A DNA stretch of 64,000 nucleotides, taken from positions 806,001 to 870,000 of the forward strand of contig NZ_CP133594.1 of assembly GCF_031312535.1 (NCBI RefSeq), read 5' to 3'. A program made the translations under genes and the position numbers. The DNA is from Methanolobus mangrovi (GTDB taxonomy: Archaea; Halobacteriota; Methanosarcinia; Methanosarcinales; Methanosarcinaceae). The notes under the pieces are model-generated. The model searched no databases, was not told the DNA's origin, and saw only the letters and a list, made by a program, of their open reading frames with translations. This document shows positions 4,373-9,671 of this stretch, one piece after another. Numbering within the stretch: position 1 is the first letter of the stretch; each line of letters starts with the position of its first letter.

Positions 4373-4777
4373 TTACTCCAGACCTTCCGGATTTTCATTA
4401 AGAACTGCAGTCCACCACCATCTGGCCATATCTACCAGATCCTTACTGAACTGCCCGGAAAGGCGATACTCCTGATTTTTGTGAGAAATAAGGCCAGCGC
4501 CTAGCAGTTTGTTGCGCATGGCATAGAATGAGGCACGTCCAATATCCAGTTCTTCGAGAAGAGCTTCCCATTCACTGGTTTTTATAGGATTTCCACTTTT
4601 TTGGCGATCTTCGACCATCATGAGAAATTTCTGGCCGCGAATGGCAGTTGCCTCTTCCTGGAAAAGTCGCCTCATCAAATTATAATAAGGGTCCCTGGAA
4701 TGTGTTATGCGAGAATTGGAATCCGAACGTACTACCAACGTAGTAGATGTACGTGGTGCATTTTTTACAATAGACAT
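4373..4777 (-). CDS. Conserved winged-helix-like protein, function unknown
   Basis: A 134-residue soluble protein. The second half (WEALLEELDIGRASFYAMRNKLLGAGLISHKNQEYRL) has the helix-turn-helix plus wing pattern of a small winged-helix domain. The C-terminus is Trp-rich (ARWWWTAV). It lies between tRNA-Gln and a DUF2551-like gene on the same strand, 31 bp from it, so the two may share a transcript. A DNA-binding role is inferred from the fold pattern only. Confidence 0.6.
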   Translation of the reverse strand: MSIVKNAPRTSTTLVVRSDSNSRITHSRDPYYNLMRRLFQEEATAIRGQKFLMMVEDRQKSGNPIKTSEWEALLEELDIGRASFYAMRNKLLGAGLISHKNQEYRLSGQFSKDLVDMARWWWTAVLNENPEGLE

Positions 4778-4808
4778 TTAAGATCTCAGGTCTAAGAAAA
4801 TACAAATA

Positions 4809-5132
4809 TCAGCAACTTGAAGCTGATGATTTTGATTCTAATGCATTTCTTATGAGGTCCTCATATTCTTCCTTCAAAGAATATACTATAGGAGTCTTAT
4901 AAGATTCCTTATGAGATCTAAGCACACCTAATTTTGAATAGATGTAACCTACCATTGATGCTACTGCACTACGGGAAATATCATATTTTTGAGCGATATT
5001 CGTATGCAATTCATCAACCGTTGTCTCCTTTGCATTTAAGAACAGGGATAATATGTGACTGCGGAGCCCATTACAATCAAGTTCAATGAACTTTTGCAAT
5101 CTTCGTTTTATTTTTGCGCGAATTGAGTCCAT
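4809..5132 (-). CDS. DUF2551-like small protein
   Basis: A 107-residue protein with strong GAGGTGAAATT upstream of ATG. It resembles the methanogen family DUF2551 (recognised by eye). The segment VDELHTNIAQKYDISRSAVASMVGYIYSKLGVL is a helix-turn-helix candidate. The function of the family is not known. A TATA-like element read on the minus strand at 5156-5168 (GCATATAAAAGG) sits about 25 bp before the start, which suggests a short leader. Confidence 0.6.
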   Translation of the reverse strand: MDSIRAKIKRRLQKFIELDCNGLRSHILSLFLNAKETTVDELHTNIAQKYDISRSAVASMVGYIYSKLGVLRSHKESYKTPIVYSLKEEYEDLIRNALESKSSASSC

Positions 5133-5289: not shown

Positions 5290-5739
5290 ATGGATATCAG
5301 GTACGATGTTGAAAATAATGTAGTGAAGGTTGAAGATATTGACCTATGCCCTCAGAGCCTTGACATAAATTTTATTGGAGTTTGCAGCCATTGTAATTCA
5401 GATGTATTCAGTATGAGCTATCATCCATATGAAGATGGAATGCTAGTGATTGCAAAATGCAATTCGTGCGACAATATCTATGCCATCATATACGATAAAG
5501 ACTGGAATTGGCAGAGTGAGGAAACGATATCTCAGTTCTTTGATCTTAAGAGCTGCAATGATCTAAAATTTCTGGATAGCATCAACAAAAAGAAGCTTGC
5601 GGCTGTTTTCACCCCTGCTGAAATTGATTCCATGTATACAAAAGCACGCGGTGAAAAGTATACTCGCCAATACCTTTACAGAGCCAGAAAAAAGTATGTG
5701 GATTTTGAAGACTTATTCGGAATTAAGATTAATATCTGA
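5290..5739 (+). CDS. Zinc-ribbon-like hypothetical protein
   Basis: A 149-residue protein with GGTGAC just upstream of the ATG. Two CxxC pairs, CSHC near residue 35 and CNSC near residue 60, form a likely zinc ribbon. The last third is basic and helical (YTKARGEKYTRQYLYRARKKY), compatible with nucleic-acid binding. It was not recognised as a named family. It is the last conventional gene before the 4-kb small-RNA region. Confidence 0.6.
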   Translation: MDIRYDVENNVVKVEDIDLCPQSLDINFIGVCSHCNSDVFSMSYHPYEDGMLVIAKCNSCDNIYAIIYDKDWNWQSEETISQFFDLKSCNDLKFLDSINKKKLAAVFTPAEIDSMYTKARGEKYTRQYLYRARKKYVDFEDLFGIKINI

Positions 5740-6186: not shown

Positions 6187-6199
6187 CTTTAAATATAAT
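6187..6199 (+). promoter_or_regulatory. TATA-like box before element B1
   Basis: TTTAAATATAATG lies about 60 bp upstream of the B1 hairpin, the same distance as TTTTTTATATTG before B2 (about 7104-7115). A start site 25 bp downstream would give an RNA of about 65-70 nt ending in the U-tract. Confidence 0.4.
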
Positions 6200-6218
6200 G
6201 ATTCCCACATATACAACT

Positions 6219-6288
6219 GTGGAAGGTACATTTAAAGGATTGGTATCATAAAGCACCAGTTATAATGCTGGTGCATCCTTTTTTTAGG
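6219..6288 (+). ncRNA. Candidate small RNA B1 with terminator-like double stem
   Basis: An inner stem GCACCAG (6253-6259) pairs with CTGGTGC (6268-6274). An outer stem AAAGGAT (6234-6240) pairs with ATCCTTT (6275-6281), and a U-tract follows. The paralogous element B2 at 7150 keeps the preceding CATAAA and the ACCAG/CTGGT core while a G-C pair becomes A-T, which is a compensatory change. The 5' end is estimated from the TATA box. No SD or ORF is present. Confidence 0.5.
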
Positions 6289-6530
6289 CAAGTTGTTATA
6301 AACCTTGGTTATATATCAAGGGTTATTTATACACTATATGCAGAGTGAAATAACCGATAAATAAAAGAACACGGAAAAAGTCCTCAGAAACAACCTTTTT
6401 GTATTCTAAGTAAAATTCAATTATCTCATTATGATATCAAGGCGTCACGACCTGATTCCTTCATAACCTCACATTTTTGTGCTGCCTCTTGAAATAAGGC
6501 TTTATGCCTGATTTTGAAATGTAAAAAAGG

Positions 6531-6575
6531 CGGTACGACTGCAAAACGCCGATTATGAGGTTGCGGCGTTATCCC
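6531..6575 (+). ncRNA. Candidate small RNA C1
   Basis: The motif GGTACGACTG (6532-6541) is followed by a 7-bp stem AACGCCG (6545-6551) / CGGCGTT (6564-6570) whose loop ends in GGTTG. The relative C2 at 7947 has the same GGTACGACTG and loop end, but its stem is GACGCTT/AAGCGTC. Several pairs therefore changed on both sides. Such covariation argues for a functional RNA. The transcript ends are not defined. Confidence 0.5.
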
Positions 6576-6652
6576 TTAATATTCGATTTAACTTGGCAAA
6601 AATATAGAATAATCACCTCAATTTATACCTCTTAGTTACATATCAGATACTG

Positions 6653-6665
6653 TTAACTTATATAC
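6653..6665 (+). promoter_or_regulatory. TATA-like box before element A1
   Basis: TAACTTATATACG, about 50 bp before the conserved GTACCACCCCC motif of A1. A start near 6688 would give an RNA of roughly 75 nt. Confidence 0.4.
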
Positions 6666-6699
6666 GAGTACATTGTATAGCAAAAGGTAAACTGTTTTA

Positions 6700-6765
6700 C
6701 AGTTTCGTACCACCCCCAAACCCCCACACGAACATCGATAACAATTATCGGTGTTCTTTTCTTTA
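6700..6765 (+). ncRNA. Candidate small RNA A1: C-rich 5' segment plus terminator hairpin
   Basis: The single-stranded part GTACCACCCCCAAACCCCC (6707-6725) precedes a 12-bp hairpin at 6730-6756 (GAACATCGATAA, loop CAA, then TTATCGGTGTTC) and a TTTTCTTT tract. The copy A2 at 7717-7756 differs at one base of the C-rich part. In the stem T-G pairs become C-G. The combination of unpaired C-rich stretch and terminator hairpin is the layout of a trans-acting sRNA, but the target is unknown. Confidence 0.55.
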
Positions 6766-7136
6766 ACGAATTCATATCCTTTTTATTGATGCTTATTTTC
6801 AAACAGCTGAGCTAATTTTACCTGAGCATTTATATCAGCTACAAATCTTGTAATTTAGAAGCAAGTATTTGCTATGATCTATTGAAAAAAAGAACCGATT
6901 TTATCGTTTTATTTGCTCCTAAAGAACATAATTACTAAGTAGTAATAAACTTATATCTTGACACGTAGACAGATGAACTTTTAAGTAAGCACCGGTGATG
7001 GATATTGTATTCACTCCCACTGTTATAACTATTGACATTTAGCGCCGTTCAAAAATATAATGCCGTTAAAATTTAATCTGATGCTTAAAATGAAAATGAG
7101 TTTCTTTTTTATATTGTAAATTCATAAAAGGAAGGG

Positions 7137-7204
7137 GGCTTTGTATAAGATGGGGTGGGACCTCATAAAACACCAGCTACATAGCTGGTGTTTCACATTT
7201 TTAT
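7137..7204 (+). ncRNA. Candidate small RNA B2 (paralogue of B1)
   Basis: A 10-bp stem AACACCAGCT (7169-7178) / AGCTGGTGTT (7183-7192) with loop ACAT, preceded by the CATAAA found in B1. An outer pairing GTGGGA (7155-7160) with TTTCAC (7191-7196) is possible with two G-U pairs, and TTTTTAT follows. A TATA-like TTTTTTATATTG sits near 7104-7115. A G-rich leader (GATGGGGTGGGA) is unpaired otherwise. The 5' end is an estimate. Confidence 0.45.
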
Positions 7205-7375
7205 ATTAGTTCCATACTTTTCTTTAATCACCGCAGGCAACTGAAATCAATGTCAGAAATTATAAGATGAAATCCAAGCATAGGAAACGGCTACTATCTT
7301 TTAGTTAATAATAATGTTATTTCAAAACTTGTGCCATCGATAAAAGATGCGGAATCAAGGTTGTTATTATAAGTT

Positions 7376-7407
7376 ACTAAACATTGTTTCTTGTTTGTTT
7401 AAATATG
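7376..7407 (+). promoter_or_regulatory. Promoter module before element D: AAACATTGTTTC dyad plus TATA
   Basis: The dyad AAAC-ATT-GTTT (within 7379-7390) is followed 7 bp later by TTTAAATATG (7398-7407). The same arrangement, GAAACATTGTTTC then TTTAAAATAG, stands before element C2 at 7869-7897. A repeated upstream dyad at fixed distance from TATA suggests a shared regulator binding site. Confidence 0.45.
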
Positions 7408-7442
7408 AAGAAAAACAAAAAAGGAATTGTACACCATTAAAA

Positions 7443-7505
7443 ATGATAACACGGGGGTTAGGTATGTAGATACCGAAAAGCGATATTTTCGGTGTCTTTT
7501 TATCT
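7443..7505 (+). ncRNA. Candidate small RNA D: G-rich leader and 11-bp hairpin
   Basis: ACACGGGGGTTAGG (7450-7463) precedes the hairpin GATACCGAAAA (7469-7479) / TTTTCGGTGTC (7486-7496) with one T-G pair, followed by TTTTTATCTTATCGGCC. The GGGGGTT motif also occurs in the loop of C2. Both D and C2 are followed directly by an E element, and both share the upstream dyad promoter. So D and C2 occupy equivalent places in a duplicated module. Confidence 0.45.
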
Positions 7506-7562
7506 TATCGGCCTATGGGATCCCCTCAGAAATGCTCGTTTCAATCTATGCCCATCAGGCCA
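7505..7562 (+). ncRNA. Structured element E1
   Basis: GGCCTATGGG (7510-7519) pairs with CCCAT-C-AGGCC (7551-7561), a 10-bp stem with one bulged C. The paralogue E2 (8001-8060) keeps GGCCT/AGGCC and the leader TTATC, while the inner part of the stem changes to GATA/TATC. It may be the 3' part of the D transcript or a separate RNA. Confidence 0.4.
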
Positions 7563-7647
7563 TTATTCTTATTTTACCTACGGTGCTATGAACAAATTAT
7601 TCTAGTAAGGAGATCTATAGCAAAATGCATTCCTATATCCTATAATG

Positions 7648-7682
7648 TAGGTTTCTAATCAGAAACCTATCTATTGATATAA
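7648..7682 (+). promoter_or_regulatory. Perfect 9-bp dyad and TATA before element A2
   Basis: TAGGTTTCT (7648-7656), spacer AATC, AGAAACCTA (7661-7669) is a perfect inverted repeat. TTGATATAA follows 4 bp later (7674-7682). The position just upstream of the TATA box is where an archaeal activator would bind. No equivalent dyad precedes A1, so the two A copies may be controlled differently. Confidence 0.4.
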
Positions 7683-7704
7683 CATTATCTCATTAGTATA
7701 ATTG

Positions 7705-7770
7705 GAACTTCTTTTAGTACCACCCCCAATCCCCCACACGAACACCGATGTATATTATCGGTGTTCACTC
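7705..7770 (+). ncRNA. Candidate small RNA A2 (paralogue of A1)
   Basis: GTACCACCCCCAATCCCCC (7717-7735) precedes the 10-bp hairpin GAACACCGAT (7740-7749?) / ATCGGTGTTC ending at 7756, then a pyrimidine tract TCCTTCCTTT. The stem matches A1 with a T-to-C change that strengthens a G-U pair, and the loop differs. The two A hairpins lie 1010 bp apart, which supports duplication of a whole block. Confidence 0.55.
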
Positions 7771-7868
7771 CTTCCTTTAACCATTTAAGATGAAGTTTTT
7801 AGAATAACTGACTTTTATACTTGTTCAAAAACTCAAAATACGAGTGCATCACCTTTGTTACAAGTTAA

Positions 7869-7897
7869 GAAACATTGTTTCGTATAATTTAAAATAG
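7869..7897 (+). promoter_or_regulatory. Promoter module before element C2: GAAACATTGTTTC dyad plus TATA
   Basis: GAAAC-ATT-GTTTC is a perfect 5-bp dyad. TTTAAAATAG (7888-7897) follows 6 bp later. It is the counterpart of the module at 7376-7407 and stands about 50 bp before the conserved GGTACGACTG. Confidence 0.45.
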
Positions 7898-7939
7898 AAA
7901 TAAAGACATACAGTTGCATGTCTGGCTATGAGATCTAGA

Positions 7940-7996
7940 AAAGAGTGGTACGACTGAAGGACGCTTACCGTGGGGGTTGAAGCGTCTTACTTTTAT
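7940..7996 (+). ncRNA. Candidate small RNA C2 with G-rich loop
   Basis: GTGGTACGACTG (7946-7956 region) precedes a 7-bp stem GACGCTT (7960-7966) / AAGCGTC (7980-7986). The 13-nt loop contains GTGGGGGTT, exactly complementary to AACCCCCAC in A1 (6719-6727). A TTTT tract follows, then element E2. The covariation with C1 is the best evidence here for selected RNA structure. Confidence 0.5.
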
Positions 7997-8062
7997 TATC
8001 GGCCTGATAGATTCCAATGTACCAACTATTTCGCCAACCCAATAGGGGCCTTATCAGGCCAC
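7996..8062 (+). ncRNA. Structured element E2 (paralogue of E1)
   Basis: GGCCTGATA (8001-8009) pairs perfectly with TATCAGGCC (8052-8060), closing a 42-nt interior. The same TTATC leader precedes both E copies. The interior sequences differ, so the stem is the conserved part. Confidence 0.4.
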
Positions 8063-8179: not shown

Positions 8180-8311
8180 ATGTACGAAATACTTATCTTA
8201 TCTTTAACAACTGGTGCAAGTTTGCTAATTTATACATCTGTCTTGTATAAGTTAAGAAGTATTGAAAACCGGGTTAAATATTGTGAAAACTTCAAAGTTT
8301 CTCCAAAATAG
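8180..8311 (+). CDS. Possible 43-residue membrane protein
   Basis: ATG to TAG with GAGGGT five bases upstream. The product begins MYEILILSLTTGASLLIY and has one hydrophobic helix (residues 3-23) followed by a basic tail (YKLRSIENRVKY). TATA-like CATTATATC lies near 8125. It is too short for routine gene calling. It could be a small single-pass protein linked to the adjacent RNA cluster, or chance; the ribosome-binding site and helix pattern favour a real gene. Confidence 0.45.
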   Translation: MYEILILSLTTGASLLIYTSVLYKLRSIENRVKYCENFKVSPK

Positions 8312-9671
8312 CATAATGTAACTAATTTTAGTTATATTTTATTTGGTTTTTCTATATCCTTTACAATATAATACGACGTAACAATATATAGCTACGTTTA
8401 ATTATTACGATGTTATAATAATAGAATATTATCGACTTATATTTATAAAGACATACTTAATTAAATTGTTGTTTTCGTATACTTGCGAACCAAAACAGCA
8501 AATTTCTTGATTTTTCCCGGTTTTCCCAACAAGTCACCAGCATTTTAATAAAATAGCCATTCCCCAATAACTATCAGTAATGATATCTAATTTATTTCAA
8601 TAGTTGTATAACTTTCATATGAATTAAATTAAGCTATATTTATATAATAGTTTTAGACATGCTTTGTATAGAGGTTGGATGCTGAAAAAACCAAACTAAA
8701 ACTAACGTCAATAATATAAAGAGTGCTTAAAATATCGAGTACATTATAATCTTATTTTAAATGACTTAATCATTACATTCTCAAAAAATATACTGAATAT
8801 TTCCTGATCTCAACGCTCGAAAACACAAAAAATCCATATTCTTATAGTGTATATGAATGGATAATTAGAATTCTCAAAAATGGCAAAATGGGTATGTTTT
8901 TCTAAAATCGGTTATTCCATAGTATATATGAATACACTAGTTCTAACCTTCACCAGAACCATGATCTATTAGAAAATAGTTGGAAAAATTATACCTGATA
9001 TAGCACCTACCGCATTACTATAGTCTATGTAATAATTGTATGCTGGTTTAAAGCATTATTTTCAAGATCAAAGACTAATTGGTTTTAAATTAGTAGACAA
9101 AACATGGGTAAAGTATAAAGTTGTAAACAAAATATATTCAATGGATGAAACTGAGTGAAATGTAGCATAAAACTTTACTTTTTAATAAAATAACTGAATT
9201 ATATAACATATATTACGCATATACATAAAAATTACAAATGTCCATATGATTTTTAATGATGTTACTAATTTTATACATGTGTTTTTATATATACATAATA
9301 AACACTTTTAGCCTATACTATGCAAGCTACAAAATATAATATAAATATATGTTGATAAAATTAGTTACTATCCAATAAAATTTGCATTTTAACTTATAAA
9401 GTTATTATTTTGTTATAAATATTTTAACAGTTTGGTGATTTGTTTGCTATTTTGTGAAGTATATATTGCAGTATGGATTAGTGAACTCTGCCAAGTTCAT
9501 TGAACTCACATTTTTGAAGCGTTTTTGAAGCATATACTTTACTATACATATCTATATCAGTGATTATAGCCCCACAGCAAAATAGCCATCAAGTACATAA
9601 TTATTGACTACAATCTCCTAAACCTAAATAGTATGCCATGTAATTGAATATTCCTATAACAGGTGAACTAT

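Follow-up and report, generated by a model that had tools for sequence, protein, structure and literature searches.

Which kind of genetic element accounts for the run of hairpins in a long intergenic region of Methanolobus mangrovi, and what might it do in the cell? The stretch of DNA analysed (the window, 64,000 nt) represents positions 806001-870000 of a complete 2.62-Mb genome of the genus Methanolobus, and contains a 3.9-kb intergenic region bounded by genes for a 149-aa protein (5290-5739) and for an MFS transporter (about 9672 onwards). A sequence-only reading had placed five kinds of hairpin element (A to E) in this region and had taken them for a tandem family of independent small RNAs (sRNAs). 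Our analysis of conservation supports independent, predicted sRNA genes well, though not a single tandem family: at least two classes are present, one with a C-rich seed (C and, loosely, E) and the other with a G-rich target-like seed (A, B and D), and relatives of the elements are mostly dispersed across genomes. The earlier reading also missed a functional hint, namely that the seed is complementary to the ribosome-binding sites (RBSs) of surface-protein genes.

Elements of the cluster and its surroundings

All five kinds of hairpin were recovered, D as the only one occurring singly. The elements and a neighbouring small ORF, in window coordinates, are as follows.

6189-6285, plus strand: A1; TATA-like CTTTAAATATAAT at about 6189-6201, target-like seed GGATTGGTATC at 6238-6249, hairpin at 6253-6274, T-run to 6285.
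6524-6578, plus strand (strand uncertain): B1; GCGGTACGACTG, then hairpin AACGCCG/CGGCGTT at 6545-6570.
6657-6764, plus strand: C1; TATA-like CTTATATACG at 6657-6666, seed GTACCACCCCCAAACCCCCACACG at 6707-6730, hairpin at 6730-6756, U-tract.
7105-7202, plus strand: A2; TATA-like TTTTTATATTG at about 7105-7115, target-like seed GGGGTGGGACC at 7152-7162, hairpin at 7168-7193, T-rich tract.
7378-7502, plus strand: D; dyad TAAACATTGTTTC at 7378-7390, TATA-like TTTAAATATG at about 7398-7408, G-rich CACGGGGGTTAGG at 7450-7462, hairpin at 7468-7497, T-tract.
7510-7562, plus strand: E1; long-loop hairpin GGCCTATGGG...CCCATCAGGCC.
7672-7774, plus strand: C2; TATA-like ATTGATATAA at 7673-7682, seed GTACCACCCCCAATCCCCCACACG at 7717-7740, hairpin at 7740-7766, weak U-tract.
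7869-7996, plus strand: B2; dyad GAAACATTGTTTC at 7869-7881, TATA-like ATTTAAAATA at about 7887-7896, GTGGTACGA at 7945-7953, hairpin at 7959-7987 with stem GGACGCTT/AAGCGTCT and loop GTGGGGGTTG.
8001-8061, plus strand: E2; long-loop hairpin GGCCTGATA...TTATCAGGCC, the loop having TGTACCAAC and GCCAACCC.
8180-8311, plus strand: 43-aa small ORF that probably encodes a protein; it lies 3′ of the cluster and outside the RNA set; similar C-terminus in genomes G006, G014, G016 and G019.

C1 and C2 are 84% identical over 61 nt, B1 and B2 share a common block of 26 nt (77%), and A1 and A2 have seed and hairpin in common. E1 and E2 are GGCC...GGCC long-loop hairpins; E is a member of a looser class, and E-like long-loop hairpins with the octamer GUACCACC in the loop were found in several relatives. 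In G002 and G016, the conserved islands of the region correspond to A1, C1, C2 and D, together with the promoter-like block upstream of each. A1 is conserved together with its TATA box in G002, C1 has syntenic copies in G002 and G016, the block upstream of C2 is conserved in G014, G016 and G002, and a single relative of D was found, in G016 (65%). Among the sequences read, B was not found outside its own genome.

The region had been called gene-free, which holds for most of it, the exception being the 43-aa ORF with its homologues in relatives. This ORF ends in CENFKVSPK and was apparently lost in G002, and a hairpin, GATGTAACT...AGTTACATC, is conserved on its 3′ side in many genomes. Non-coding conservation extends to about 9650. 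The ORF-free stretch at 8250-9650, which separates the cluster from the MFS gene, shows 65-71% identity in G016 and G002 across about 1.3-1.4 kb and contains several conserved TATA-like blocks; it is probably a further non-coding RNA or a long regulatory leader.

The gene order is shared by most of the Methanolobus genomes examined, and runs from a 134-aa gene through a DUF2551 gene, the 149-aa gene and a long intergenic region to the MFS gene, with 1.7-5 kb separating the 149-aa and MFS genes in those relatives where both were readable. The product of the 149-aa gene has a sub-threshold zinc-finger match, and the gene was found in none of the searched genomes outside Methanolobus. At 4373-5132 of the window, an operon encodes the DUF2551 winged-helix-like protein and the 134-aa protein; both are nearly invariant across species, with the first 30 residues being the same in most, which is unusual for hypothetical proteins. 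A two-gene operon and a divergent gene had suggested that the sRNA162/MM2440-2442 locus of M. mazei is syntenic; this was rejected, since its published layout, with overlapping ORFs, an ArsR regulator and the sRNA placed between MM2441 and MM2442, differs from that in Methanolobus.

Conservation and promoter- and terminator-like features

Conserved structure, the absence of which was to have refuted the earlier reading, is present in relatives: covariance models of the C and A elements detected more copies, both elsewhere in the own genome and in other Methanolobus genomes. Paired bases had been said to change together between copies, and this was borne out in stems aligned by hand. In the C stems (18 sequences), 98% of cells were paired and 14 were double-change cells, and in the A stems seven double-change cells were counted; both counts were reached in 0 of 1000 shuffles, a result that is not a probability because the sequences are related. 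Together, the independent covariance-model copies and the compensatory stem changes place A and C beyond chance.

The TATA-like boxes noted 60-70 nt upstream in most elements keep a characteristic distance. Of the 13 A-family members, nine have their best match 58-70 nt before the hairpin; of the 14 C-family members, 12 have it 42-59 nt before TACCACC, which for the common spacing places the box about 65-80 nt ahead of the hairpin. In the 12 nt 3′ of the hairpin, the T content is 0.51-0.55 on the strand given above versus 0.31-0.33 on the opposite strand, in agreement with the claimed U-tract except that the tract of C2 is weak.

These features bear on whether the elements could be mobile or repetitive DNA (REP- or MITE-like palindromes), or protein sites at the DNA level, rather than RNA genes. 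Multicopy hairpins in several contexts would be expected of such DNA, but the copy number is low, the promoter-like block and the seed are conserved as well, the stem changes are compensatory, the T-rich tract lies on one strand, and the motif keeps a fixed strand across RNAs and gene leaders. We hence regard this explanation as very unlikely. Generic terminators were ruled out as the identity of the elements, since the AACACC...GGTGTT hairpin is too rare, occurring at only four genomic sites of which three are family members. A known Rfam family was likewise ruled out: searching the window and eight loci against Rfam release 15 at the gathering score returned tRNAs only and no match for these elements. 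A scan of named genomes, insensitive because an exact pattern was used, retrieved two Methanolobus records and three unrelated hits that are probably due to chance.

A palindromic dyad, GAAACANTGTTTC, is located directly before the TATA boxes of D, B2 and several C-like RNAs elsewhere. Its sites precede TATA-like boxes by about 10-20 nt at 7378-7390 and 7869-7881 of the window and at loci L106 (2662), L102 (2230), L114 (4251) and L140 (2354), and among the several copies it is confined to D, B2 and part of the C-like RNAs. In 489 kb, approximately 14 sites deviated from the dyad at no more than one position, compared with about one expected by our own estimate; since the loci were picked for containing the elements, this excess is suggestive at most. 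This distribution suggests that GAAACANTGTTTC is a candidate operator of a common transcription factor.

The C-rich seed and the starts of PEF-CTERM genes

Element C exposes GUACCACCCCC...CCCCAC, with GUACCACCCCCAAACCCCCACACG preceding the hairpin. Two unrelated, widespread, sRNA-like scaffolds also carry the octamer GUACCACC, in their loops; they are found in the own genome (genome coordinates) as follows.

425438-425618, minus strand: GATC-stem element (L168, 1400-1600).
494315-494465, plus strand: GATC-stem element (L172, 1400-1600).
1814091-1814212 and 1814283-1814398, minus strand: tandem pair of the GCAAGGTC-stem element (L136, 3390-3620).

The GATC-stem element, about 110 nt long with the stem GATCRCATG/CATGYGATC, occurs in 12 Methanolobus genomes in all, with A-U/G-C exchange within the stem and a loop rich in ACC (ACCAACCACCATCATCACCAACCACC). 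It reaches about 90% identity between Methanolobus species and has no Rfam match. The second scaffold, a very well conserved hairpin with the stem GCAAGGTC/GACCTTGC, is present in all 12 Methanolobus genomes searched, and has a nearly invariant UACCAC and the loop CGTACCAC. The octamer GTACCACC is not enriched genome-wide (62 occurrences versus 92 for the reversed control); its signal resides in its location, not its abundance.

Shortly before AUG, the seed complement GGUGGUAC constitutes the RBS of genes for archaeosortase-anchored (PEF-CTERM) surface proteins. GGTGGTA followed by ATG within 2-8 nt was found 65 times in the own genome versus 31 for the reversed control, and where the gene start was believable, nine of 12 products were exported or membrane proteins by our reading, compared with 19% of sampled genes. 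Three of these products carry the terminal PEF-CTERM archaeosortase signal. As a test independent of the motif choice, the TIGR03024 profile was run on the genome and identified exactly these three as the intact PEF-CTERM genes, all having GGTGGTA 5-8 nt before ATG; the profile also scored a degraded copy above the cut-off, its fourth match, with a C-type RNA 0.9 kb away. Over the genus, GGTGGT or GTGGGG was present at the start of 24 of 33 readable PEF-CTERM genes versus five of 154 control genes from a 184-kb sample of one genome (p 3e-18, a value that is too small given the kinship among PEF-CTERM genes and the single-genome controls). The C seed is complementary to either hexamer, and GTGGGG was included only once four exceptions had been seen; GGTGGT alone was found in 20 of 33 versus five of 154, and approximately a quarter of the PEF-CTERM leaders carry neither hexamer. 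The PEF-CTERM genes have the start GGTGGTAC-N-ATG in common despite differing N-termini (L280, L281, L282; L288-L316).

The complementarity extends over 12 nt between the C1 seed and the leader of a 185-aa PEF-CTERM gene (GGUGGUACGAAAAUG), and over 13 nt between the GATC-stem RNA and the leader of a 224-aa PEF-CTERM gene. When C1 duplex energies were ranked, the 185-aa gene leader came second of about 160 and the other two PEF leaders 13th and 38th; the energies clearly support one PEF leader, that of the 185-aa gene. In four genomes, PEF-CTERM genes have C-type RNAs as neighbours at 0.07-1.3 kb, and a simple PEF-CTERM regular expression applied near C-type loci overlooked two profile-detected genes. 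G014 has strong C-type RNAs yet zero PEF-CTERM matches, and G001 has 24 PEF-CTERM matches and no C-type hit, with GUACCACC-loop hairpins present.

CsrB and RsmZ are RNAs that titrate a protein through repeated short loop motifs, the motif for CsrA being GGA. The C- and ACC-rich loops described here might similarly titrate an RNA-binding regulator protein instead of pairing with mRNAs, given the loops of the GATC-stem RNA packed with ACC repeats and the recurrence of the motif across different scaffolds. Titration alone, however, leaves both GGUGGUAC at the PEF-CTERM starts and the 12-13-nt extended complementarity unexplained, and C1 and C2 have one or two such sites, not many repeats. We consider it unlikely.

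Predicted mode of action and known systems

Exposed C-rich stretches complementary to surface-protein RBSs suggest that the RNAs may switch surface proteins off. The reading that we prefer, and to which we give an even chance, is that the cluster consists of small RNA genes and that the C-class RNAs act on surface-protein mRNAs by blocking the initiation of translation. This class would comprise C1 and C2 with their dispersed relatives and, probably, also those RNAs at other sites of the genome that have GUACCACC in a loop. Each RNA would be transcribed from its own promoter and end at the hairpin and U-tract, exposing an unpaired GUACCACC/CCCCAC seed beside the terminator-like hairpin. The seed would pair with the Shine-Dalgarno (SD) sequence and spacer, GGUGGUAC-N-AUG or GUGGGG-N-AUG, typical of PEF-CTERM and some other exported proteins, and the resulting duplex would exclude the ribosome and so block initiation. 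The archaeal 16S tail carries the anti-SD AUCACC, with which GGUGGU pairs through one G-U; such mRNAs would thus be translatable while matching the sRNA perfectly. As the seed is perfect with GGUGGU and imperfect with GGUGAU, only this set of mRNAs would be hit.

This selectivity bears on whether the RNAs are instead broad anti-SD RNAs, whose seeds imitate the 3′ tail of 16S rRNA and dampen the translation of many mRNAs, with PEF-CTERM as the strongest part. GUACCACC and AUCACC do resemble the archaeal anti-SD, and further good predicted partners of C1 are subunits of a membrane-bound dehydrogenase operon and lipoproteins, but GGAGG, GAGGTG and GGTGA starts are not favoured in PEF-CTERM genes and the seed is mismatched to GGUGAU, which makes this explanation improbable to us.

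On the strand favoured by the TATA-like box, dyad and T-tract, A, B and D carry G-rich target-like sequences: GGGGUGGUACC in A of G004 and G024, GGGGUGGGACC in A2, GUGGUACGA in B2 and CACGGGGGUUAGG in D. The predicted pairing with C1 was better than that of shuffled versions for B1 (z -4.6) and B2 (z -4.1), was moderate for A2 and D, and was absent for A1. A and B may titrate the C class through GGGGUGGGACC and GUGGUACGA, a decoy role that, taken alone, we put forward tentatively. Alternatively, A, B and D would be C-class RNAs of the opposite strand, with GGUACCACCCC- or CCCCC-like seeds, and no decoys would exist. Read as its reverse complement, A of G004 and G024 indeed gives GGTACCACCCC beside a hairpin, and B2 gives TCGTACCAC and AACCCCCAC; the plus strand of A is favoured by its TATA-like box and T-tract, however, and B2 and D have dyad and TATA upstream on the plus strand. 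The minus-strand assignment, disfavoured by these features, is retained as a doubtful rival. Combining RBS blocking with the decoy role, a genus-wide regulon may be conceived in which unrelated scaffolds use one seed to silence archaeosortase-anchored proteins and A, B and D act as target-mimic decoys that release them; as a whole it is rather unlikely.

If RBS blocking by the C class proves true, a seed tied to the PEF-CTERM class would be an archaeal counterpart of bacterial envelope-regulating sRNAs, it would account for the unusual RBS common to these surface-protein genes, and the regulon would be testable at once in culturable methanogens; with decoys, it would represent an archaeal sRNA network having both blockers and sponges.

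To our knowledge, few archaeal sRNAs have known targets. RBS masking by archaeal sRNAs is already known, and the new point here is a seed complementary to the PEF-CTERM RBS. sRNA162, sRNA41 and sRNA154 of Methanosarcina mazei target a regulator, ACDS and nitrogen genes (PMC3510493, PMC5867862). As with sRNA41 and sRNA162, the present elements are intergenic, structured and conserved, carry an unpaired stretch complementary to the RBS of a distant gene, as expected of RBS masking, and come from the same methanogen order (PMC3510493, PMC5867862), whereas loci, targets and sequences differ and the M. mazei sRNAs, as described, form no large one-seed family.

For Methanolobus psychrophilus R15, the published account describes 195 sRNAs, with two or more in many intergenic regions, and nine conserved cold-induced sRNAs with a "cold box" motif upstream of their promoters (PMC5378194). 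The genus is that of the present RNAs; as to motifs upstream of promoters, the cold box was described there and the dyad GAAACANTGTTTC was found here, and some of the Methanolobus RNAs reported here may already have been detected in M. psychrophilus as transcripts without function. The GCAAGGTC-stem RNA was rejected as a representative of those nine, as it is single-copy in G026.

With CsrB and RsmZ, the likeness lies in short motifs repeated in loops (general knowledge, discussed in PMC4132741), and the difference is GGA there versus ACC/CCCC with complementary mRNA sites here. LhrC1-5 of Listeria monocytogenes are multicopy sRNAs, several of them clustered, with experimentally shown target and repression (PMC4132741). 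They resemble the Methanolobus RNAs in being multicopy and clustered, in their redundant C-rich single-stranded motifs, and in SD pairing, predicted in Methanolobus, with the mRNA of a cell-surface protein (PMC4132741); they differ in being bacterial and unrelated in sequence, and in Methanolobus target and repression are predicted only, several scaffolds share a seed and decoys are possible. By this analogy, the C-class RNAs may work like LhrC without being members of that family.
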